From contig NZ_AP019697.1 in assembly GCF_007164725.1 (NCBI RefSeq), positions 1,337,501 to 1,401,500 on the forward strand: DNA of 64,000 bases, read 5' to 3'. Positions within the stretch are counted from its first letter, which is position 1, and every line of letters starts with the position of its first letter. Below, piece after piece: positions 12,988 to 63,217 of this stretch. The notes under the pieces are model-generated. The model saw nothing but the letters and a program-made list of their open reading frames with translations, had not been told where the DNA came from and made no database searches. Position numbers and translations under genes: made by a program. The DNA is from Dialister hominis (GTDB lineage Bacteria > Bacillota > Negativicutes > Veillonellales > Dialisteraceae).

Positions 12988-13018
12988 AAAAAAGGGCATC
13001 CCGATGGGATGCCTTTTT
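12988..13018. terminator. Bidirectional terminator between queF and ecfT
   Basis: Stem GGGCATCCC/GGGATGCC with A-run on one side and T-run on the other, serving the convergent genes. Confidence 0.85.
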
Positions 13019-13035: not shown

Positions 13036-13719
13036 TTATGCGCCGAGTTTCAGCCTTGCATATATCACGCCGGCAGTAATGAGGACGATGAGGATCATCA
13101 TAAGATAGTCTGTTCCTTTGGGCGCCACACTTTCCATGAAGGTTCTGTTCGATCCGCCGAATCCGCGAAGTTCCAGCGAAAGCGCCATGGTCTCGCTTCT
13201 TCCGAGGGAGCGGAGCATCAAAGGACGGATAATGGACATGTATCTTTTAATCTGCTTGAAGAAATTTCCTTTGACAGAAATCCCGCGGCATGCCTGCGCT
13301 TCTGCAACGGCCCTGTTTTCATCCACAAAGTCAGGAATGAAACGAAGTCCGGCCGTAAACATGAACGCATATTCATAAGGCACCTTCATCTGCTGCACCA
13401 TGGCCGCCGTCAGATCCTGCAGGCGGACAGTGCCAAGAAGGTAAATGAAGATAATCGTCATGCCCAGCATCCGCAAGGCAGCTACGACAGATTCCACATT
13501 GGAACCGCCCCCGATTTTCTCGATGAGTCCAAGAAATGCGGCAAATACCGTAAGCATAACGAGAGCTTTGATGCTTCTGAAGAGTTCTCCTGAGACAAGA
13601 AGAATCAGGATTTCAAAAAGGCAGAGAAGAAGAAGGCTTTCAGGCTTCTGGAGAACGATCGCCCAGACGGCTGTTCCCAGTGTCAGTATTATTTTCGTCA
13701 GCGGAACAAGATTTCTCAT
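13036..13719 (-). CDS. ecfT: ECF transporter transmembrane coupling protein EcfT
   Basis: Protein of 227 aa with about five hydrophobic segments. EcfT links the S-component to the two ATPases. Its two coupling-helix signatures with the family A-R-G pattern are visible as EAQACRGISVKG (about residues 140-151) and ALSLELRGFGG (about 178-188). The ATG overlaps the TGA of the upstream ATPase gene by four bases. It is the last gene of the Trp T-box operon, implying a module dedicated to tryptophan uptake rather than a shared group II module. Confidence 0.88.
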   Translation of the reverse strand: MRNLVPLTKIILTLGTAVWAIVLQKPESLLLLCLFEILILLVSGELFRSIKALVMLTVFAAFLGLIEKIGGGSNVESVVAALRMLGMTIIFIYLLGTVRLQDLTAAMVQQMKVPYEYAFMFTAGLRFIPDFVDENRAVAEAQACRGISVKGNFFKQIKRYMSIIRPLMLRSLGRSETMALSLELRGFGGSNRTFMESVAPKGTDYLMMILIVLITAGVIYARLKLGA

Positions 13720-14534
13720 AAAGCTCCCTCTCCTTTCAAAGCGATAAATGTCCTGCAGAAGCTGTCCATATCACGGCAGTAAGGTGCACCTGGCAGTTTC
13801 CTTCCCAAAAGGACGGATGCCGGGTAAAGAAGCCCCCAGTCTTCCGGACGGTTCTTTGCGGAGAATAGTTCTTCCGGCCTGCCGTCAAAGGCAACTTTAT
13901 GGGATGCGATAACGATGACTCTCGTGCAGTCGCGGGCTACGATATCCATATCATGCGTGACAAGGATGATTGTAATTCCCCTCTGCTGCAGGCTCTCCAT
14001 TAGACGCATCAGCATTTTCTTTTCATGCCCGTCCTGCCCGCTTGTCGGTTCATCGAGGATCAGATACTCAGTATCCATGGCCAGGGCAGATGCGATGGCG
14101 ACACGCTGCTGATCGCCGCGGGAAAGGGTCCTCGGATATGCTTCCGCAAGAGCTGTCGTGTCCGTTTCCATCATGGCTTTTTCAACCATGCGGTTGAGCT
14201 CCTCGCCCCGTTTCCCCTGATGATACGGTCCCAATGCAATTTCCTCGCGGACAGTCGGCATGAACATCTGCCTGTCCGGCTGCTGGAATACATAACCGAT
14301 GAATCGGCTTCTTTCTGATGCCTCTTCCTTTGTTATATCTTTTCCTTCGTAAAGCACTCGTCCTTCCGTCGGTTTTTCAAGCCCGGTCAGAAGGCGGGTG
14401 ATTGTCGTCTTGCCGCTTCCGTTCCTGCCCGTGATGGCAATGAATTCGCCTTTCCCGAATTTCAGGGATGTGTCTGAAAGAACGACCGGCATATTCTTCG
14501 CATATCTGAATGTTACATGATCAAATTCAAGCAT
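13716..14534 (-). CDS. ecfA: ECF transporter ATP-binding protein (EcfA)
   Basis: Protein of 272 aa. Walker A is GRNGSGKTT (about residues 33-41), the Q-loop region is FQQPDRQMFMP, the ABC signature variant is LSRGDQQRVAIA, and Walker B is YLILDEPTSGQD. The signature LSRGDQ differs by one residue from LSGGQ. The start at 14534 (MLEFDHV) is chosen over upstream codons because GAAGGAGG lies eight bases before it. It overlaps the end of the fused S-component/ATPase gene by eight bases. Together with that protein's ATPase half it should form the ATPase pair. Confidence 0.9.
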   Translation of the reverse strand: MLEFDHVTFRYAKNMPVVLSDTSLKFGKGEFIAITGRNGSGKTTITRLLTGLEKPTEGRVLYEGKDITKEEASERSRFIGYVFQQPDRQMFMPTVREEIALGPYHQGKRGEELNRMVEKAMMETDTTALAEAYPRTLSRGDQQRVAIASALAMDTEYLILDEPTSGQDGHEKKMLMRLMESLQQRGITIILVTHDMDIVARDCTRVIVIASHKVAFDGRPEELFSAKNRPEDWGLLYPASVLLGRKLPGAPYCRDMDSFCRTFIALKGEGAL

Positions 14535-16011
14535 TGTCCCGGCCTCCTTCAAACGAATGGATGATAGATTCCTTGGCTGCCTCTACATTCAGAAAAGGAT
14601 TCTTGAATGTGAAGCCATGTTCTTCAAGTTCGAGCTGCGCTCTGTACATATCCGGAATCGCCTCTTCATAGACATGGCTCTTTCTCATGAAGCGCATGAC
14701 TTTTTCCGGATCCCCGGAGCTGATGATTTCGCCCTGATCCATCAGAACGAACTCTGTTGCGTAAGGAAGAGCCGCTTCGAGATGATGCTCAGCGACAATA
14801 ACGGTCAAGCCTTCTTTCTGGTTCAGTTCTCCGACCATTTCATAGAACTCGCGGATTCCTTCCGGATCCAAGGCCGATGTCGGTTCGTCGAATACAAGAA
14901 CCTGCGGTTCTTCTGCAAGGACAGCTGCTGCCACGAGTCTCTGGCACTGTCCGCCAGAAAGTGTGGCTACCTTTCTGTCTTCAAGTCCTGTCAGATGGAC
15001 TTTTGCCAGGGCCTCTTCTGAACGGCGGCGGATTTCCTCAGGCGGGAAGCCATGGTTTTCCAGCGTAAATGCCATTTCCTCCCCGACAGTCAAAGTAACG
15101 ATCTGCGCTTTGTAATCGGCAAGAATGACGCCGATGGAAGAAGCAAGGTCGGCAATCGTGTGCTGTGTGACGGCCTTGCCGTCTGTATAAACCATTCCCT
15201 GCATCGTTCCGCCGTAGTAATGAGGAATGGCGCCTGCCATGGACATGAGAAGTGTCGTCTTCCCTGCTCCGTTAGGTCCTGTAACTACAATGAAATCTCC
15301 CTTCTGTACTGTCATGGATACATCCTTCAGTGCCGGCTCTTTTGAGAAAGGATATGTGTAAGTCAGATGCTCTACACTGATGACGCCTTCATTTTCCTGC
15401 TTCAGGATTATTTTGCTGTGATCGCTGTCTTCTACATCCGATTCCGCCATATAGTGCATCGTCTTGAAAAGGCGGAGCGCCGGGAAGTAAAGGAATGGTG
15501 TAATGATTCCGTTGCCTACGCCGACCAGAAGCACCATCGGAAGCATACCGTATACATATACGCTCATAGGAAGCCCCATGACAAGTGTCAGAATCGATAC
15601 GAAGACGAAGCCCGAAACCAGTGTCGTCACAAAGCCTGCAAGTGCCGGGCGGAGTGAAAACTTTCCAATGCGGATCGGAGGCACGGAGTGGGCAAAGAAT
15701 CCTGCCACATAAGCGCCAAAGAATTCAGAAGCAAAATCTCCGTACGGAAAAGCGGATTTACTGGTAAATACCTCCATCAGAGCTGCCACCATACAAATCC
15801 CCAGACATTTTTTGTAATCCGGTTTCGTCAGAAGAATCGCAACGACATAGGTCGCAATCATCCAGTTTGGCGTAAAGCCGGCTACAGATGGGGAAACCAA
15901 GTGCAGCAGCATACCGATTGCCAGCATCAGCGTAGAGATCGTCAGCCAGCGGAAACGTCCCCCTCTCGCCTTGGTAAAGACAAGCTTGGATACATCCTTC
16001 ATCGCTTCCAT
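14527..16011 (-). CDS. Fused ECF S-component (TrpP-like) and ATPase
   Basis: Protein of 494 aa. Residues about 1-195 are a multi-pass membrane domain resembling the TrpP tryptophan S-component family (WLTISTLMLAIGMLLHLVSP near the start, LTKPDYKKCLGICMVAALME later). Residues about 210-455 are an ABC ATPase with Walker A GPNGAGKTT, signature LSGGQCQRL and Walker B VLVFDEPTSALDPEG. S-components and ATPases are normally separate polypeptides, so this is a fusion. The start at 16011 follows GGAGGGAG. Expression is governed by an upstream T-box with a UGG specifier, which independently points to tryptophan as substrate. First gene of the operon. Confidence 0.88.
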   Translation of the reverse strand: MEAMKDVSKLVFTKARGGRFRWLTISTLMLAIGMLLHLVSPSVAGFTPNWMIATYVVAILLTKPDYKKCLGICMVAALMEVFTSKSAFPYGDFASEFFGAYVAGFFAHSVPPIRIGKFSLRPALAGFVTTLVSGFVFVSILTLVMGLPMSVYVYGMLPMVLLVGVGNGIITPFLYFPALRLFKTMHYMAESDVEDSDHSKIILKQENEGVISVEHLTYTYPFSKEPALKDVSMTVQKGDFIVVTGPNGAGKTTLLMSMAGAIPHYYGGTMQGMVYTDGKAVTQHTIADLASSIGVILADYKAQIVTLTVGEEMAFTLENHGFPPEEIRRRSEEALAKVHLTGLEDRKVATLSGGQCQRLVAAAVLAEEPQVLVFDEPTSALDPEGIREFYEMVGELNQKEGLTVIVAEHHLEAALPYATEFVLMDQGEIISSGDPEKVMRFMRKSHVYEEAIPDMYRAQLELEEHGFTFKNPFLNVEAAKESIIHSFEGGRDNA

Positions 16012-16038
16012 AATATTTTCTCCCTCCGCTGTAATCAA

Positions 16039-16304
16039 TAAAAAAACCTTTCTTCCAATTGCCGAAACGGCAAAGGGACGAAAGGAAATAATTCCGCGGT
16101 ACCACCCTTGTTGGCCAAAAGGCCCAACTCAGTGCATATGCATCTTCTGTAACGGAGAAATCCGGCGGCGCCTACCCCAATCATGGCTCAGACCGCACCT
16201 CACAGGCCCATTCGTATGACTTCGCGTACCGGACTTGCACTCGACGCCGGCTCCCTGAAACGATTCCATCATAGTACTCTTCCTGATCACAGGTTCTTTC
16301 TATT
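16039..16304 (-). promoter_or_regulatory. T-box riboswitch, tryptophan (UGG) specifier
   Basis: Minus-strand leader of about 265 nt. Stem I is seen with the AGTA loop-E motif (after AGGAAG), the distal AGGGAGCCGG/GTCCGG region and the specifier loop CGAATGGG. The specifier TGG is at 16208-16210 and is followed by a purine. The T-box sequence GGGTGGTACCGCGG and its partner form the antiterminator (16075-16107). A competing terminator with a T7 run ends at 16039. K-turn bases TGA flank the lower helix on both sides. Uncharged tRNA-Trp should permit read-through into the ECF operon. Confidence 0.93.
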
Positions 16305-16310
16305 AAACGA

Positions 16311-16339
16311 ATTATAGCATTCACAATTCGCACTGTCAA
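16311..16339 (-). promoter_or_regulatory. Promoter of the Trp T-box ECF operon
   Basis: Minus-strand TTGACA (16334-16339), 17-bp spacer and TATAAT (16311-16316). Confidence 0.85.
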
Positions 16340-16922: not shown

Positions 16923-17237
16923 TTTTTACCCCTTCCATAAAAATTTATTCAAAACACAGATTTTGTAATTTCTAATCTTATATAAGTATAGCAAACTATG
17001 ATTTTTACGACAAATACTTCGTTTTATTCATTATGTCTTGCGCTTTCCTCAACTTCTAAACCAATGATTAATTGGAGCAAAAATTTCAATAAAAATAATA
17101 TCATGCAGTATAAAAATTACCAATTTTACTTTTATATTTTCTTGTGTTCTAATTAAGTTAGAAGAGGGGAAATACGGCATAGTCCGCAGTGTGAGTCAAA
17201 TCATTTTCATTATATTTTGTAAGAGTAGGTGATTGAT
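16923..17237. other. Intergenic region with first usp promoter
   Basis: About 315 bp, strongly AT-rich, between the divergent nitroreductase and usp genes. It contains the shared-type usp promoter at 17125-17153 and an 85-base leader. No other gene was seen. Confidence 0.6.
17125..17153 (+). promoter_or_regulatory. Shared-type usp promoter, copy 1
   Basis: TTTACT (17125-17130) inside TTTTACTTTT, exactly 17 bp, then TCTAAT (17148-17153). Upstream is an A-rich TATAAAAATTA block. The same arrangement recurs at 18265 and 18890. Confidence 0.75.
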
Positions 17238-17666
17238 ATGGAATTCAAAAAAATCCTTATTCCGGTTGATGGTTCCGATCCATCCATGAACGCATTCCAT
17301 TGTGCACTGGATCTGGCAAAAGCACACAAGACAGAAATGATTCTGCTCTATGTCATCGATGCCAATGAAATGTTCTATGCAACCAATCAGGTCATGCTGT
17401 CTGGCGAATTCTTCGAAACCATGAAGGGTGTAGGCACCAAACTGATTGAAAAACTGGTGAGCGAGATTCCTGAAGATGTTCCCCACAAATCCATCTGTGT
17501 CGTAGGCATTCCTGGTGAAACAGCATCGGATATTGCCAAGTCAGAAGAAGTGGACCTCATCGTCATGGGCAACAGCGGCAAGGGCGCATTCAATGCTTTC
17601 GTCACAGGCAGTGTCAGCCAGTACGTCATCCACCACGTAGAATGCCCGGTTCTGATTGTCAAGTAA
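17238..17666 (+). CDS. Universal stress protein A family, copy 1
   Basis: Protein of 142 aa, a single Usp domain. It begins MEFKKILIPVDGSDPSMNAF; the ATP-binding signature G-x2-G-x9-G-S is present as MGNSGKGAF...TGSVS near residues 110-127, placing it in the nucleotide-binding class. The hydrophobic C-terminus CPVLIVK is standard. ATG 17238 is chosen because the other copies align there; a GTG at 17229 is in frame. First of five tandem paralogues. Usp proteins support survival under starvation or stress; the exact role is unknown. Confidence 0.92.
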   Translation: MEFKKILIPVDGSDPSMNAFHCALDLAKAHKTEMILLYVIDANEMFYATNQVMLSGEFFETMKGVGTKLIEKLVSEIPEDVPHKSICVVGIPGETASDIAKSEEVDLIVMGNSGKGAFNAFVTGSVSQYVIHHVECPVLIVK

Positions 17667-17686
17667 TCAGAGTTTACAAAAGAATC

Positions 17687-17729
17687 CGCATGTTTCTTCC
17701 TGAGAAGTGAATTATCGTGCATGCGGTCT
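17687..17729 (+). repeat. Inverted repeat between usp copies 1 and 2
   Basis: CCGCATG (17687-17693) and CATGCGG (about 17719-17725) flank a spacer that itself contains CTTCCTGAGAAG. It could form a hairpin in a read-through transcript from copy 1 to copy 2. No T-run follows, so it is not a clear terminator. Confidence 0.4.
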
Positions 17730-17769
17730 GTCTTTTCCCTGATTTGAATTCATAAGGAGAATGATCAAA

Positions 17770-18198
17770 ATGGAATTCAAAAAAATTCTCGTTCCGGTCG
17801 ATGGCTCGGAAGCCGCCGGAAACGCTCTGCACTATGCTGTAAACATGGCAAGAAATCATGGTTCTTCCATTACCCTGATCAGCGTTGTTGATGCCAATGA
17901 TCTTCTGAGAGAAACCAATGACGTCATGCTGACCGATGAATTCATGGAAACCCTCAAAGTCGAAGGCAAGGAAATCGTTGCCCAGGCTGCCAAGGACATT
18001 CCGGAAGAGATTCCCCATGATGAAGTCACTGTCCTGGGCACACCAGGCTATCTCATTGCCAAACACGCTGAAGAAGAAGGCGTAGACCTCATTGTTATGG
18101 GCAACAGCGGCAAAGGTGCATTTTCTTCCTTTGTTACCGGCAGTGTCAGCCAGTATGTCATTCACCACGTAAAATGCCCTGTACTGATTGTTAAATAA
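17770..18198 (+). CDS. Universal stress protein A family, copy 2
   Basis: Protein of 142 aa beginning MEFKKILVPVDGSEAAGNAL, with the same G-x2-G-x9-G-S signature (MGNSGKGAFSSFVTGSVS) and the end CPVLIVK. Start 17770 has AAGGAG ten bases upstream and matches the paralogues; ATG 17761 would be too close to the SD. The shared usp promoter is absent upstream, so it is probably cotranscribed with copy 1. A strong terminator follows. Confidence 0.92.
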   Translation: MEFKKILVPVDGSEAAGNALHYAVNMARNHGSSITLISVVDANDLLRETNDVMLTDEFMETLKVEGKEIVAQAAKDIPEEIPHDEVTVLGTPGYLIAKHAEEEGVDLIVMGNSGKGAFSSFVTGSVSQYVIHHVKCPVLIVK

Positions 18199-18201
18199 AT
18201 A

Positions 18202-18236
18202 ATGAGCCCGGATATCCATCTTCCGGGCTCATTTTG
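18202..18236 (+). terminator. Terminator after usp copy 2
   Basis: Stem ATGAGCCCGGA/TTCCGGGCTCAT followed by TTTTGC. Confidence 0.85.
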
Positions 18237-18264
18237 CATTTCGAAGGATATAAAATTAATTCAT

Positions 18265-18293
18265 TTTACTTTTCCAGCCGATTGTGCTGTAAT
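18265..18293 (+). promoter_or_regulatory. Shared-type usp promoter, copy 2
   Basis: TTTACT (18265-18270) inside TTTTACTTTT, 17-bp spacer, TGTAAT (18288-18293), 60 bp before the third usp gene. Confidence 0.75.
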
Positions 18294-18352
18294 AAAGACA
18301 GGAAAGCTGGTATTTCTATTCATTTTCATTATCCGGAGGGTGTGTGATCATT

Positions 18353-18781
18353 ATGGAAATCAAGACAATTCTAATCCCGGTCGATGGCTCTGAACCTGCC
18401 GAGAATGCATTCCGTTACGGCGTAGGGCTGGCAGAAGAGAATGGAGCCACTATCGTTCTTCTCCACGTTCTGGATGCCAATGAAACATACTATGCAACAA
18501 ACCGTGTGATGCTGGCTGGCGGTATGCTCGACGAAAGAAAGGAAACAGCACAGAGAGTCATGGATCAGATGAAATCTCAGGTTCCGGAAGGAATCACCTG
18601 CAAAACAGTCATTGCAGCCGGCGTCCCAGGTGAAACAGCGTGCCGCACTGCAAAAGAAGAAAATGCTGATTTGATTGTAGTAGGCAACAGCGGCAAGGGC
18701 GCCATTTCCTCCTTCGTTATGGGAAGCGTCAGCCGTTACATCATTCATCATGTACACTGCCCTGTCCTTGTCGTCAAATAA
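18353..18781 (+). CDS. Universal stress protein A family, copy 3
   Basis: Protein of 142 aa beginning MEIKTILIPVDGSEPAENAF, with VGNSGKGAISSFVMGSVS as nucleotide-binding signature and CPVLVVK at the end. Start 18353 is chosen by alignment; GGAGGG lies 12 bases upstream, slightly far, and a GTG at 18344 is an alternative. It is a single transcription unit with its own shared-type promoter and terminator. Confidence 0.9.
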   Translation: MEIKTILIPVDGSEPAENAFRYGVGLAEENGATIVLLHVLDANETYYATNRVMLAGGMLDERKETAQRVMDQMKSQVPEGITCKTVIAAGVPGETACRTAKEENADLIVVGNSGKGAISSFVMGSVSRYIIHHVHCPVLVVK

Positions 18782-18792
18782 ACAGAATTTCC

Positions 18793-18823
18793 AAAGACCG
18801 CTTTTGCGGTCTTTTTTTTTATT
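18793..18823 (+). terminator. Terminator after usp copy 3
   Basis: Stem AAAGACCGC/GCGGTCTTT with TTTT loop and a long T-run. Confidence 0.9.
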
Positions 18824-18889
18824 CCTCTCCCCCCTATTTTCTTCTGTACTTCATTGAAATACCTATGCACCACTATAAAAATAAACAAT

Positions 18890-18918
18890 TTTACTTTTTG
18901 ATATCTATATGTTGTAAT
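18890..18918 (+). promoter_or_regulatory. Shared-type usp promoter, copy 3
   Basis: TTTACT (18890-18895) inside TTTTACTTTT, 17-bp spacer, TGTAAT (18913-18918), 71 bp before the fourth usp gene. Confidence 0.75.
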
Positions 18919-18988
18919 TAAGATAAGAGCGGTGTTTCCAAAATCCTTTTGGATTTATTAATTTAATCAAGACAAGAAGGTGTCCCCC

Positions 18989-19417
18989 ATGGAAACAAAA
19001 AAAATTCTAGTTCCAGTCGACGGATCAGAACCTGCAAACCGTGCTTTCCACATTGCACTCGATCTGGCTGCCAAAGACAAAGCAGAAGTCACGCTTATTG
19101 ATGTCGTCGATGCCAATGACATGCTCTATGCAACAAGCAAGGTCATGATCTCCCCTGAGTTCTATACGACCATCAAGAGAAAAGGGAAAGAACTCATTAC
19201 AAAACTGGAAAAGGAAATTCCTGAATCCATCCCCCACTCCACTGAAATTCATGTCGGCCTTCCGGGCCAGATGATTGCCAGTGTCGCAAAAGAAGGGCAT
19301 TTTGATCTGATCATCATGGGCAACAGCGGCAAGGGAGCTCTTGATGCTTTCGTCACAGGAAGCGTCAGCCAGTATGTCATTCATCATGCCAACTGCCCGG
19401 TCATGATTGTTAAATAA
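18989..19417 (+). CDS. Universal stress protein A family, copy 4
   Basis: Protein of 142 aa beginning METKKILVPVDGSEPANRAF, with MGNSGKGALDAFVTGSVS and CPVMIVK. SD AAGAAGG precedes ATG 18989. Followed after 18 bases by copy 5 without a terminator, so the two form an operon driven by the third shared-type promoter. Confidence 0.92.
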   Translation: METKKILVPVDGSEPANRAFHIALDLAAKDKAEVTLIDVVDANDMLYATSKVMISPEFYTTIKRKGKELITKLEKEIPESIPHSTEIHVGLPGQMIASVAKEGHFDLIIMGNSGKGALDAFVTGSVSQYVIHHANCPVMIVK

Positions 19418-19435
19418 GGAAGCGAGATAGAATCC

Positions 19436-19921
19436 ATGGAAATGAAGAAAATCCTTGTCCCGATCGACGGGTCCGAACCATCCAAAAATGCATTCAAGCT
19501 GGCTCTTGCGCTGGCTTCAAAAATGGACAGCGAAGTCATCCTTCTCAATGTTGCTGATGTCAATGAAATGACATATCCGGTCGAACAATTTGATATCCTG
19601 ACCGATTCTTATTTCGGCAAGAAGGATATGCCTGCCGGCGAGTACAAAGATTACCGTGCAGACGTATTCAAGGCAGCCAACGAAAAAGGCAATGAATTGA
19701 CAAGGGAACTCGTTGAACAGATCCCGGAGGGCATTACCTATACCGTTACAACGAAGATCGGCACCCCGGGCCCAACCATTGTCAGAGCTGTCAAGGAACT
19801 GGAAGCAGACATAGTCGTCATGGGAAACAGCGGCAAAGGCGCCCTTTCCTCCTTCGTCACCGGCAGCGTCAGCCAGTACGTCATGCATCATGTAGAATGC
19901 CCGGTAACAATTGTTAAATAA
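19436..19921 (+). CDS. Universal stress protein A family, copy 5 (longer)
   Basis: Protein of 161 aa beginning MEMKKILVPIDGSEPSKNAF. It keeps MGNSGKGALSSFVTGSVS and CPVTIVK but has an extra stretch of about 19 residues (around residues 50-70, LTDSYFGKKDMPAGEYKDYR) in the variable region between strand 2 and helix 2. This makes it the most divergent of the five. SD AAGGAAG. Second gene of the copy 4-5 operon. Confidence 0.92.
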   Translation: MEMKKILVPIDGSEPSKNAFKLALALASKMDSEVILLNVADVNEMTYPVEQFDILTDSYFGKKDMPAGEYKDYRADVFKAANEKGNELTRELVEQIPEGITYTVTTKIGTPGPTIVRAVKELEADIVVMGNSGKGALSSFVTGSVSQYVMHHVECPVTIVK

Positions 19922-20881: not shown

Positions 20882-22045
20882 AATAAGTTGAACACCCGGC
20901 GAACCTTTATGCAGTAAGTGCTGCAAGCATTTCTTCCCTAAAGCACTCCTCGGGTGTCTTATAGCCGAGTATTTTTCTTGGCAGGGTGTTGGCCCAGCAC
21001 TCTACTCTGGAAATGTGTTCCACTGGGTAATCCTGGATTTTCTTCCCTTTGGGAAGAAATCGACGGAATAAGCCGTTGTGATTCTCATTCGTACCTTTGT
21101 CGCTGGAGCAGTACGGATGCGCATAATAGATCCGTGTGTGACTTAGTTTCTCTAGCTCCGACAGGCTAGAAAACTCACTGCCATTGTCTGTCGTAATGCT
21201 GAGGAACACTCGGCTGAAACAGCCGCGGAACATTCCATCCTTCAATTTTCTGAAGGCTGCTATTACAGAGGCACTTTCCTTGTTGGGCAGTTTTCTGATG
21301 AGGGAACAGCGTGTCTTGCGCTCAACCAGAGTCAGCAGTACTTCGTCCTTTGAGCGAGATCCCAGTACAAGGTCACACTCCCAATGCCCGAAATCCTGAC
21401 GCTCATCCACAGAAGGATCGCGCTCATCTATACTGCGGCCGAACTTCTTCTTACGCTCACGAACCCGCTTCCTGGCGTTTTTTCGCTTGACGCGCAAGGG
21501 CAGGTCAATACTCTTGATTTTTCCTAGGAGCCCCAGCGTGACATAGTTGTACAGGGTTTTCGTACAGACCATCTCGCCACGTTGAAATTCTCCCGTAACC
21601 AGTGCCCTGCCAAAGCAGGCATCGAGCGACCAGTGATGTTCCTGAAGTCTCTTCTGCACATAGTCGAGGAATGCTCCCTTTGCTATGGCGTCGCATTTGC
21701 GACCACAGTTTTCGCGATGCGCCTCATAGGTGCTTTGCCCGTCTGCTGCGCGATAGCGTTCCACCTTGCCGTTATAGCAAAGAACCTTGCCACGCTTCAC
21801 CTCGTTGCGTACCGTATTGACACAGCACCCAATCTCACGGGCTATGCTCCGATACGATTGCTTGTCGCGGAGACGCGTTTGGATAATGACTCGTTCCTCA
21901 AAAGTTAAATGAGCCCCTTTTTTGCGTAACGTATCCGTGGTAAAATGATTTTGATCCATAGCGATTCTCCTTTGTGGTTGTGTTTTTTGTGCAACTACAT
22001 TTTACCACAAGGGTTCGCTATGGATTTTTAAGTGTTCAACTTAAT
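20882..22045. mobile_element. IS30 family insertion sequence, complete
   Basis: Element 20885-22042 (1158 bp). Terminal inverted repeats begin AAGTTGAACAC on both ends, and a 3-bp target duplication AAT is present at 20882-20884 and 22043-22045. It contains one intact transposase gene filling the element. The 3-bp duplication fits IS30 family behaviour. It lies between mscS and folD and interrupts no recognisable gene. Confidence 0.9.
20907..21959 (-). CDS. IS30 family transposase
   Basis: Protein of 350 aa. The N-terminal helix-turn-helix (LTFEERVIIQTRLRDKQSYR, then IAREIGCCVNTVRNEV) binds the ends. The DDE integrase core shows HWECDLVLGS (first Asp), TTDNGSEF (second Asp) and DKGTNENHNGLFRRF (Glu). 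The frame is intact and all catalytic residues are present, so the element may be active. SD AAGGAGAAT precedes ATG 21959. Confidence 0.95.
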   Translation of the reverse strand: MDQNHFTTDTLRKKGAHLTFEERVIIQTRLRDKQSYRSIAREIGCCVNTVRNEVKRGKVLCYNGKVERYRAADGQSTYEAHRENCGRKCDAIAKGAFLDYVQKRLQEHHWSLDACFGRALVTGEFQRGEMVCTKTLYNYVTLGLLGKIKSIDLPLRVKRKNARKRVRERKKKFGRSIDERDPSVDERQDFGHWECDLVLGSRSKDEVLLTLVERKTRCSLIRKLPNKESASVIAAFRKLKDGMFRGCFSRVFLSITTDNGSEFSSLSELEKLSHTRIYYAHPYCSSDKGTNENHNGLFRRFLPKGKKIQDYPVEHISRVECWANTLPRKILGYKTPEECFREEMLAALTA

Positions 22046-26808: not shown

Positions 26809-28300
26809 GCGATCTTCTCCTCATATAACGGACTGCTGCATCGTAGATGGCCGCAGGTTCATTTTCAAGGCTTCCGCTCTGCACGCGGATAAGAAGGTTC
26901 TTCATTCCTTCAGGCGTCTTCTCTCCTAAAAGGAGGGGAACACGCTTGTCATAATGAAGTTCCTTTGTTGAAACAGGGATTTCCAGCGCAAGCCGGGACA
27001 TGTATTCTCCGATTTCCTGATGTCCCCTTGTATCGGCGTCCGGATTTCCGCATCCTATAATGTCTGCGATGGAAAGATCTGTCATCTGCAGCATGGCTTC
27101 CGATACATCGGCCGACGTCGGGAATGCTTTTTCTCTGGCAATCTGCCTTATCCACTTGTCGGGATGTGATTTCGGATCGTTGGCAATGGTATGGAATCTC
27201 ATATGATTTTCTACCAGCCAGGTTACACGGTTGACAAAGGCTTTCGGACGTTTCCAGTGCTTCAGGAGCGCTCTGGTCATTTCAGCCCCTTTCTTATCAT
27301 GGCCGTAATCAGTAAGCCGTCCCTTGTGAATGCCCCTGACACCAGGCATTCCTTTGCCTACGTCATGAAGAAGAGCCGCCCAGCGGTTGATGAGTAATGG
27401 TTTTGATGCATCAAGAACGGCCAGTGTGTGATACCAGCCGTCGAACTTATGAAATTCTTTCTGCTGCGGAAGTCCCACCAGGTGAGAGAGTTCCGGAAGA
27501 ATGGCAATTTCCGTTTCTTTGCCGTATTCCGTTGCATGGCAGAAACATTCATTAAGCCCTGTACGCACAAGAAGGTCAAAGCCGCGCGCTGCATGCGGCG
27601 TCACAATCAGCCGGTCTATTTCACTTTCCACTCTCTCAAGCGAAAGTCCCTTCACCCGTTCAAAGGCGGAAGGCATGCCGTCAATCAGTGAACGATCCGC
27701 CATGAAATCCAGCTGTCCCAGAAAACGGCAGGCACGGAAAAGGCGGAGCGCATCCTCTGAAAAGCGCTTGGATGACTCACCGACCGTACGGAGCCTTTTC
27801 CGGTCCAGATCAGAAACGCCATCAAAGTAATCATAAATCACGCCGTCTGCATCGACAGCCATGGCATTGACAGTGAAGTCGCGGCGCATCAGGTCTTCCT
27901 TCAGATCGGATGCAAAATGCACTTCACTTGGACGATGTGCATCCTGCCCGTACGTTTCGCTCCGGAAAGTCGTCACTTCATAGCTCATGCCATCAATGAC
28001 GATGATAACTGTTCCAAAGCGGCGTCCCTCTCCTCCAATGGCTTTCCATCCGCGGCTTTCTGCCACGCGGATCGTTTCATCCGGAAGAGCAGACGTTGTA
28101 ATATCCCAGTCATGAGGCTCAAGCTTCATCATCAGATCCCTGACGCAGCCGCCCACGATAAATGCTTCAAATCCATCTTCATGAAATGCACGCAAAATAC
28201 GCATTGCACCCTTGTCTATGAGTCCGATCCTTTCGTCAGAAGACAGATTTTCAAATCCTTTTTTATGAAAGTAAGAAGAAACCGCCCCCAAGAATCCCAT
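26801..28300 (-). CDS. cca: CCA tRNA nucleotidyltransferase with HD domain
   Basis: Protein of 499 aa that adds or repairs the 3' CCA of tRNAs. The class II nucleotidyltransferase core shows FIVGGCVRDLMM (about 46-57) and the metal-binding HDWDITTSA. RRDFTVNAMA and RACRFLGQLDF follow. A C-terminal HD region has ALLHDVGKGMPGVRG (about 312-326), so it may also have phosphohydrolase activity. All tRNA genes in this window already encode CCA, so a repair role is likely. SD GGAGGGAG. Operon with the PBP gene. Confidence 0.92.
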   Translation of the reverse strand: MGFLGAVSSYFHKKGFENLSSDERIGLIDKGAMRILRAFHEDGFEAFIVGGCVRDLMMKLEPHDWDITTSALPDETIRVAESRGWKAIGGEGRRFGTVIIVIDGMSYEVTTFRSETYGQDAHRPSEVHFASDLKEDLMRRDFTVNAMAVDADGVIYDYFDGVSDLDRKRLRTVGESSKRFSEDALRLFRACRFLGQLDFMADRSLIDGMPSAFERVKGLSLERVESEIDRLIVTPHAARGFDLLVRTGLNECFCHATEYGKETEIAILPELSHLVGLPQQKEFHKFDGWYHTLAVLDASKPLLINRWAALLHDVGKGMPGVRGIHKGRLTDYGHDKKGAEMTRALLKHWKRPKAFVNRVTWLVENHMRFHTIANDPKSHPDKWIRQIAREKAFPTSADVSEAMLQMTDLSIADIIGCGNPDADTRGHQEIGEYMSRLALEIPVSTKELHYDKRVPLLLGEKTPEGMKNLLIRVQSGSLENEPAAIYDAAVRYMRRRSHE

Positions 28301-51142: not shown

Positions 51143-52438
51143 TTATGCTTCTACAGCAGCGGCCGGTTCGAGTTTCCCTTCCAGATCATGGTCGGTCATA
51201 GCGCATACGCAGGAATCAGACCATACGTTTTCTGCGGTTTCAATCATGTCAATGATTGTATAGATTGGAAGAATGATACCCATGAGTCCTATTGGTGCAC
51301 CGATACCGCTCATAAGAGACAGTGTCAGGAAATAGCATCCCATCGGAACGCCCGCATTGCCGATGGCTGCAATGACAGCAACGACGAGCCATGTCAGCAT
51401 AGTCGGCATATCCAGCGAATATCCTGCATTCTGCATAACGAACAGGGAAGTAACGAGAATGAAAGCTGCACAGCCGTTCATGTTGATAGTCGTGCAGATT
51501 GGAAGGACAAAGCGGGAAACAGCCGGATCTGCTTTCAGATTCGTTTCAGCAGAAGCCAGTGTGACAGGCAGTGTGCCGGCCGAACTCTTTGTGAAAAGAG
51601 CAACAGCTATCGCCGGTGACATTTTACGGAATACAGAAATTGGATTCAGTCCGCGAAGCAGAAGGAATACCGGCAGTACAAGGAAGAACTGGATGCAGTT
51701 GCTTCCAATAATAACCAACGTGTATTTTCCAAGAGCTCCGACAATGACGCCTGCTTCAATCTGTGCAGAAAGCTGAGCGGCAAATGCCAGAATGCCGACC
51801 GGAAGAATATACAGCAGTGCTTTGATCAGTGTGAAGAGCAGTTCCTGGAAACCGAGGATTCCCTTCAGCAGCGTTTCCCTGTTTTCTGTCTTTGGCATGA
51901 AAGCAAGTCCAAGACCAAAGGAAGCGGCAATCAGCATAACAGCAAGGACATTCCCGGAAAGGAACGGCTGAATCATATTATTCGGAATAACTCCCAGAAT
52001 ATGATCATAGTAGGAAAGCTGTTCCAGATTCTGCGGGACACTGGCTGCACCTGCACCAACTACATCAGCAGGAAGATTTCCCGGTGCAATCCAGAGGAAC
52101 ATGGCAAGTCCGATGCCGGCTGCACAGAATGTAGTGAGGAGCGTATAAGTAACAGCATGAGCAAAAATACGTCCCGTATTCTTATTGCCGCCCAATGCAG
52201 CAAGTGTAGTAATCACTGCCAGTGCAATCGTCGGTACGGCGATAAACTGGAACAGTCTGGTAAATACTGTTGCAATAAATGTGAAAAGTTCATTCAGCGG
52301 TTTGATGCCAAGCCATCCAAGTGCGGCACCAACGACAAGCGCCAAGATCCATAACATAAACTGCCGTCCCTGACGTTGCGTCTTGTTGGCTTTCAAGACC
52401 TTATCCGCTATGTCCTGAACTCCTTCTTTCTTCTCCAT
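51143..52438 (-). CDS. Dicarboxylate/amino acid:cation symporter family protein, T-box controlled
   Basis: Protein of 431 aa of the DAACS (GltP/DctA/TcyP) family with eight membrane segments and two hairpins. The first re-entrant hairpin shows ALFTKSSAGTLPVTL (about 276-290) in place of the usual serine-rich motif; the Na+/substrate region is TINMNGCAAFILVT (about 318-331), with Asn and Cys where glutamate transporters have NMDGT. The last helices read NAGVPMGCYFLTLSLMSGIG. A T-box with a probable Cys specifier precedes it, suggesting cystine or cysteine uptake as with TcyP. SD AGGAGGTC. Confidence 0.85.
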   Translation of the reverse strand: MEKKEGVQDIADKVLKANKTQRQGRQFMLWILALVVGAALGWLGIKPLNELFTFIATVFTRLFQFIAVPTIALAVITTLAALGGNKNTGRIFAHAVTYTLLTTFCAAGIGLAMFLWIAPGNLPADVVGAGAASVPQNLEQLSYYDHILGVIPNNMIQPFLSGNVLAVMLIAASFGLGLAFMPKTENRETLLKGILGFQELLFTLIKALLYILPVGILAFAAQLSAQIEAGVIVGALGKYTLVIIGSNCIQFFLVLPVFLLLRGLNPISVFRKMSPAIAVALFTKSSAGTLPVTLASAETNLKADPAVSRFVLPICTTINMNGCAAFILVTSLFVMQNAGYSLDMPTMLTWLVVAVIAAIGNAGVPMGCYFLTLSLMSGIGAPIGLMGIILPIYTIIDMIETAENVWSDSCVCAMTDHDLEGKLEPAAAVEA

Positions 52439-52744
52439 AGTAAGACCTCCTGAAAAAATTTCTCGGGCAGGGCTTTTTGCAATAAAAAAGCCCTCACCCC
52501 AACCATGGGACGAGAGACTCGTGATTCACACCCAATTTCGCATATGTGTCACCACACATGCCTCGATAAGTCCTTTTTCCTAAGGACTCAAGCCCTGTAT
52601 CGGGAGCTCCCGGAAAAGCTTACTCTGTTTCGGCTCTTCACGCTCAAAAATGCACTTCCGTATTCCTTCCATATCCGCTTTCACCGTCCGGACTCTCTAT
52701 GATGGATTCAGAAAACGTACTCTCTTTCTTCCCTGCGTTTGATT
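52439..52744 (-). promoter_or_regulatory. T-box riboswitch, probable cysteine (UGC) specifier
   Basis: Minus-strand leader of about 300 nt. Stem I has AGAGAGTA (loop E), the distal AGAGAGTCCGG and GGTGAAAGCGGA, and a specifier loop GAAGTGCA whose positions 5-7 give TGC (52652-52654), followed by A. UAC in the adjacent GAATAC is a less favoured reading, since those bases pair with CGTTTTC. The antiterminator/terminator switch is clear (CTCTCGTCCC pairs with GGGGTGAGGG, then CTTTTTT; 52484-52516). The T-box sequence is divergent: GGGTGTGAATCACGAG in place of GGGTGGNACCGCG. Confidence 0.85.
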
Positions 52745-62909: not shown

Positions 62910-63217
62910 AAGAAACAAGCGATGATGAAGAAGGGATAATAAAACCTTTTCAGAGAGACGGTGGCTGGTGTGAACCGTTAAAGCATTATTATCTTTCCGC
63001 TTCGGAGGTGAAGACGATGAGTCTTCCGGGACATGCCCGTTACAGCTGACTAAAGATGGCCGTAAGGCAATTTGGGTGGTATCGCGGGTGCTCTCGTCCC
63101 TTAAGTGGATGAAGAGCGTTTTTTTATGGATACAACAGATTGGCAGCGGCTAAATTGGGTGGCACCGCGAGAAAAAGAGAAGCTCGTCCCATGGGACGTC
63201 TTCTCTTTTTGTGTTTT
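62910..63217 (+). promoter_or_regulatory. T-box riboswitch with two antiterminator/terminator modules, probable serine specifier
   Basis: Stem I has GATAATA/TATTATC, AGAGAGACGGT and GGTGTGAACCGTT. After TATTATC comes TTTCCG, so the specifier is probably TCC (62996-62998, Ser), in line with serC. Module 1: GGGTGGTATCGCGG (63074-63087) and terminator GCTCTCGTCC/GGATGAAGAGC plus T7 (63090-63128). Module 2: GGGTGGCACCGCGAG (63157-63171) and terminator AGAGAAG.../...TCTTCTCT plus T5 (63173-63217). No second Stem I lies between them (about 30 bp only). Confidence 0.9.

Follow-up and report, generated by a model that had tools for sequence, protein, structure and literature searches.

TrpP of Bacillus subtilis (YhaG; family PF17099) is a free-standing protein controlled by TRAP. 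In the group I ECF systems, such as BioMNY and CbiMNQO, one S-component and a dedicated A/T module are encoded in a single operon. ECF modules with fused ATPases (A1-A2) have already been described (PMC6828968), as have ABC importers in which the substrate-binding domain is fused to the permease and the binding unit is consequently tethered to the translocator (PMC7755397). Tryptophan uptake systems driven by a Trp T-box (the TrpX system, the NSS family) are on record (PMC9382623, PMC2494555), and no ECF or TrpP example is named in the passages searched in PMC2494555. Known already, then, are Trp T-boxes that control transporters, ECF systems of group I and fusions of A1 with A2.

The locus described here shares with B. 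subtilis TrpP a homologous S domain and a regulation linked to tryptophan, but its TrpP is fused to an ATPase, comes with an A2 and an EcfT of its own and is controlled by a T-box. Like BioMNY and CbiMNQO, it has one S-component encoded with its module in one operon, the arrangement of group I; unlike them, it has S and A1 in one polypeptide and its cargo is probably an amino acid. An A1-A2 fusion joins two motors, whereas here a binding subunit and a motor are joined; permease-fused binding domains are soluble, whereas the unit tethered here is an integral membrane S-component that topples. Finally, the TrpX and NSS family systems are ordinary ABC transporters or symporters and not, as here, an ECF transporter with TrpP. 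Our literature search found no description of an S-A fusion, and one may have been mentioned earlier in Rodionov 2009 or Vitreschak 2008.

In the window (the whole stretch of 64,000 nucleotides that was analysed), a promoter, a T-box leader, a terminator hairpin and three genes in overlapping frames all lie on the minus strand (Table 1). We consider it likely that together they specify a dedicated (group I) ECF importer for L-tryptophan, controlled by the T-box and with S leashed to A1. Sequence or structure prediction directly supports the RNA and its codon, the assignment of the domains, the fold of the S-component and the conservation across the order. The promoter is a perfect match just 5' of the T-box; for the region as a whole, the count of promoter-like sites is not above that in shuffles. 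Folding of 16035-16112 gives -22.3 kcal/mol, with a z of only -1.57, and the leaders of relatives have hairpins like the terminator of the window. The fused frame is listed as an ORF at 14527-16038(-), but the ATG at 16011 is its likely start, giving 494 aa, because a Shine-Dalgarno sequence is present and the alignment with relatives agrees. The remaining ATPase and EcfT had been placed in overlapping frames by the initial annotation, and the overlaps measure 8 nt (fused gene/A2) and 4 nt (A2/EcfT).

Table 1. Features of the TrpP-ATPase locus (window coordinates)
Feature	Position	Strand	Basis or remark
Promoter, TTGACA-N17-TATAAT	16311..16339	-	12/12 consensus match, TG before -10
T-box leader, RF00230	16071..16299	-	covariance model, 110 bits
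Specifier loop, 3' side, CGAAUGGG	16207..16214	-	covariance-model alignment and register control
T-box sequence UGGUACCGCG (N = U; most relatives UGGC)	16095..16104	-	
Competing intrinsic terminator, hairpin and U7	16040..16085	-	folding
Fused gene, TrpP S-component and ECF ATPase A1, 494 aa (likely start)	14527..16011	-	
TrpP S-component domain, 6 helices	15442..15969	-	PF17099 and model
Linker	15388..15462	-	conserved SDH at 15418-15426
ATPase A1 domain	14530..15387	-	Walker A, LSGGQ and Walker B intact
Second ECF ATPase (A2), 272 aa, ATG at 14534	13716..14534	-	TIGR04521
EcfT	13036..13719	-	PF02361
Terminator-like site 3' of EcfT, bidirectional	12995..13013	-	regional count of such sites not above chance

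The general remark that S-components are normally separate from ATPases is true for TrpP in our phylum sample. Outside the class, the TrpP matches lie in short frames, that is, they are free-standing. Elsewhere in the class TrpP is also mostly free-standing, and several genomes outside the order have separate S-A-A-T operons with the same Trp T-box; the unfused relatives L148, L149 and L150 have the same gene order and a Trp T-box. In the order itself the fusion is the norm and no local oddity. It is present in every order genome with a TrpP match, 60 of the 61, in each case without an internal stop; the last genome lacks such a match. In the tree, the order forms one clade (support 99/95), the shorter fusions of families f5, f7 and f14 form another (100/100), and there is one lone fusion from f11, where a second copy runs off its contig. 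The best tree requires more than one change, while a single origin of all fusions is not rejected (p-AU 0.18-0.19).

Two sequence details of the fusions look new: a linker motif, and a Thr where AxxxA has its first Ala. The motif, (S/T)(D/N)H, occurs in 35 of 38 order fusions and in 0 of 21 unfused systems. As for helix 1, its AXXXA is described as only "relatively conserved" in S-components, so that we treat it as an associated and not a defining feature, and docking of ThiT requires either Ala of the motif (PMC11109136). AxxxA is found in 22 of the 27 readable free-standing TrpPs of the class. The window lacks the strict motif and has TLMLA (TxxxA), and the first docking position of 44 fusions is T in 42, V in one and S in one. 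TxxxA also occurs in three free-standing class TrpPs, and fusion can be compared with loss of the first Ala in only two independent pairs, too few to reach significance; the loss is therefore a lead and not a test.

The linker motif and the lost Ala could be adaptations to a leash, with the tether replacing docking affinity and transport proceeding without free release of S, a proposal that we put forward tentatively and that may well be wrong. That the protein is a tryptophan importer in which the fusion is a linkage accident, equivalent to separate subunits (or to subunits cut apart after synthesis) and without effect on mechanism, is a serious possibility, if somewhat short of an even one. 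Sister orders manage with unfused S-A-A-T operons under the same T-box, and fusion might merely keep the stoichiometry. An accident would, however, have to have been kept in 60 of 60 order genomes with TrpP, together with a linker motif specific to the fusions and an altered docking motif, and the best tree calls for several changes (more than one), even if a single origin is not rejected.

The domain identities bear on what is carried. A TrpP-like domain joined to an ABC ATPase had been proposed, with a search against PF17099 as the check. To residue ~183 the fused protein matches PF17099 at 39.7 bits (cutoff 27.2), TrpP being the sole Pfam family found in the N-terminal domain, and an ECF-type ATPase follows. 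The best NCBIfam match of the A1 half is TIGR04520 (207.5 bits, below the equivalog cutoff of 315), and its closest solved chains are EcfA1. A2 matches TIGR04521 (214 bits, below the equivalog cutoff of 330) and has the motifs GRNGSGKT, LSRGD, LILDEP and THD. The third gene matches PF02361 (71.7 bits, cutoff 25) and has sequence matches to solved EcfT. Both ECF-type ATPases and the EcfT of an ECF transporter are present.

A sequence search of the TrpP domain against solved structures gave no match even at E 10. Modelled alone, the domain has six helices (pLDDT 83.8, pTM 0.81), and 22 of its 23 best VIA rows are S-components (Z 9.3-15.0). These matches include the S-components PanT, RibU, FolT, ThiT and BioY and M subunits of the Cbi/Nik type; the remaining row is MreD, whose fold is known to be related to that of S-components (PMC11109136), and unrelated rows begin at 8.4. 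Foldseek taken alone is weaker by E-value (best 0.13, RibU, probability 1.00), but its top four matches are S-components (probability 0.98-1.00). The model of the full-length fusion has a mean pLDDT of 59 and an unusable ATPase half, and ATPase matches take up its Foldseek list. As modelled, the TrpP domain has the ECF S-component fold.

The TrpP score is modest compared with the 90-212 bits seen in many other Firmicutes, so that the substrate could have drifted even though the score is above the cutoff. The substrate of the family is, moreover, based on work in other bacteria, and this genome can make tryptophan too. It is nonetheless unlikely that the S-component serves not tryptophan but a compound resembling it (an indole or some other aromatic derivative, for instance): control by the charging of tRNA-Trp makes tryptophan the sensible cargo, and the link between Trp T-box and TrpP is seen in many genera throughout the class. 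The initial annotation had taken codon and fold as two signals agreeing on tryptophan, and the UGG specifier and the TrpP match do both point there.

The leader matches RF00230 at 110 bits against a gathering threshold of 93 (E 2e-23), which agrees with the T-box called earlier. Its loop sequence is CGAATGGG (16214-16207(-)), and the covariance-model alignment holds UGG (16210-16208), and no other codon, in the codon columns. The register was tested because GAAUGGG contains AUG as well. The rule applied is that the codon consists of the three bases preceding one purine and the lower stem. In the same genome it yields the expected amino acid at leuC (Leu), pheS (Phe), serS (Ser), ileS (Ile), thrS (Thr), glyQ (Gly) and cysS (Cys), and Met at methionine-type genes (the gene names are readings of translated starts). 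The T-box of trpE, in the trp operon, has a UGG codon and UGGU, as does the window leader. In the window UGG is followed by one G and the lower helix CAGG/CCUG. The pairs of this helix covary in the family leaders (CAGG/CCUG, CGGG/CCCG, CAAG/CUUG and UGAG/CUCA), with a perfect partner of the lower 3' strand found by script in 11 of 12. The strict search missed L065, whose leader shows CGGG/CCCG; for the window and L067 the script returned another, closer occurrence of the four letters, and the right one is evident from the covariance-model alignment and from the leaders of the relatives.

The base facing the discriminator agrees with this register. In this genome tRNA-Trp (taken from the tRNA family loci, since the DNA pattern for tRNA-Trp gave no match) has G73 and tRNA-Met has A73. 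The UGGN/NCCA pairing is available: UGGU pairs with G73 by a U-G wobble that is common to the window leader and the trpE leader of its genome. At TrpP loci elsewhere in the class (outside the first 12) there are 34 UGGC and 7 UGGU, and the UGGC of most relatives pairs with G73 and not with A73, which favours Trp over Met. By alignment and register the specifier codon is UGG.

A methionine importer whose T-box reads the AUG one base upstream is very improbable. It could draw on the AUG within the loop, on the Watson-Crick match between the UGGU of the window and A73 of tRNA-Met, and on the Met T-boxes of the same genome. In those T-boxes, however, AUG lies one base lower, where the window has UGG (AUG GCC UCU GAG versus UGG GCC UGU GAG), and the paired changes below the loop always leave UGG and, between it and the helix, one purine. 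The trpE leader has the same signature as the window, the UGGC of most relatives cannot pair with A73, and the S domain is TrpP. The methionine reading was rejected on the register, the trpE control and the UGGC of relatives. An assembly error, or a stop codon lost in one genome, is excluded for all practical purposes, as is chance, by the same architecture without internal stops in 12/12 family genomes and in 60 genomes of the order.

From the preferred reading, a T-box-controlled tryptophan importer with a leashed S-component, we infer the substrate, the direction of transport (import), the response to tRNA and the behaviour of the leash. In the established T-box mechanism, uncharged tRNA allows read-through (PMC7583486). 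When tryptophan is short, uncharged tRNA-Trp would pair with the leader twice: through its anticodon at UGG in stem I, and through its GCCA end at the UGGU of the antiterminator. With the tRNA bound at both sites the terminator would not form, and translation, probably coupled, would yield S-A1, A2 and EcfT. Tryptophan would be captured outside by the S domain, and the A1/A2 pair and EcfT would use ATP hydrolysis to move it across the membrane. An S-A fusion is topologically allowed, since an S-component has its two termini in the cytosol (PMC12075633). Held to A1 by ~25 residues of linker, S would tilt or topple, and perhaps undock, but could not leave the motor or be exchanged, and the S-components of the second ECF module in the cell would thus face no competition from it. 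Searches of the 2.4-Mb genome by family and stretch by stretch gave only two EcfT matches, of which the second is near a separate ECF ATPase (1.56 Mb); given this one other EcfT, the fusion probably shields the module from competing S-components. One ATPase would in this way be fixed to one substrate, as had been suggested initially. The genome keeps trp biosynthesis genes, with UGG and UGGU also before trpE, so that tryptophan uptake and synthesis are likely to be under the same signal. We count against this explanation the wobble of UGGU with G73, the absence of a strict AxxxA, the modest TrpP score and, as regards the linker geometry, the poor ATPase half of the full-length model.

The fusion bears directly on the question whether expulsion of the S-component in every cycle is obligatory for ECF importers. 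The data of a single-molecule study do not formally prove expulsion essential, and comparison with group I was suggested (PMC12075633); ECF mechanisms may differ between groups (PMC10368641). A natural S-ATPase fusion, found order-wide and open to comparison with unfused relatives, makes the question testable with native proteins. If S does work on a leash, the full dissociation proposed for the group II cycle would not be needed. The source is a gut-type bacterium, and its whole order makes the likely tryptophan importer with S and ATPase joined; the tryptophan assignment appears well supported for a protein easily mistaken for a plain ECF ATPase.

Some variants were seen among relatives. The shorter S-A fusions (L136-L140; f5, f7 and f14) are ~425 aa long; missing from their ATPase are the first strand and the A-loop region, and ATP binding at their A1 site may differ as a result. 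A scan of genome contigs with the fused alignment, which used ATPase patterns, mostly returned unrelated ABC ATPases; it also gave Megasphaera paucivorans, a Veillonellaceae MAG and an unfused Pelosinus MAG. M. paucivorans (L151, L161) has two fused TrpP-ATPase copies close together, the second 3' of EcfT, and no T-box was found directly upstream of this second copy. In L145 (family f26) the gene after the Trp T-box and the free-standing TrpP is an unrelated one, and no ECF genes follow; this TrpP may therefore share a module.

The genome has 33 T-box matches, a rich set for its size, some of them in tandem (for example, 27780-28287). A second T-box of the window (52503-52742 (-), 96.8 bits) has the specifier UGC (Cys) and a T-box sequence with an extra U (UGUGAAUC). 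It precedes a dicarboxylate/amino acid:cation symporter-like gene (51143-52438 (-)), which suggests that the product is a cystine/cysteine carrier. A third (62913-63104 (+), 89.5 bits, just below gathering), with UCC (Ser) and UGGU, precedes a serC-like gene. The window also contains five consecutive genes for small, clearly mutually related proteins of the universal-stress type (17229-19921 (+), 145-161 aa) and an ORF of 350 aa for an IS30-like transposase (20907-21959 (-)).
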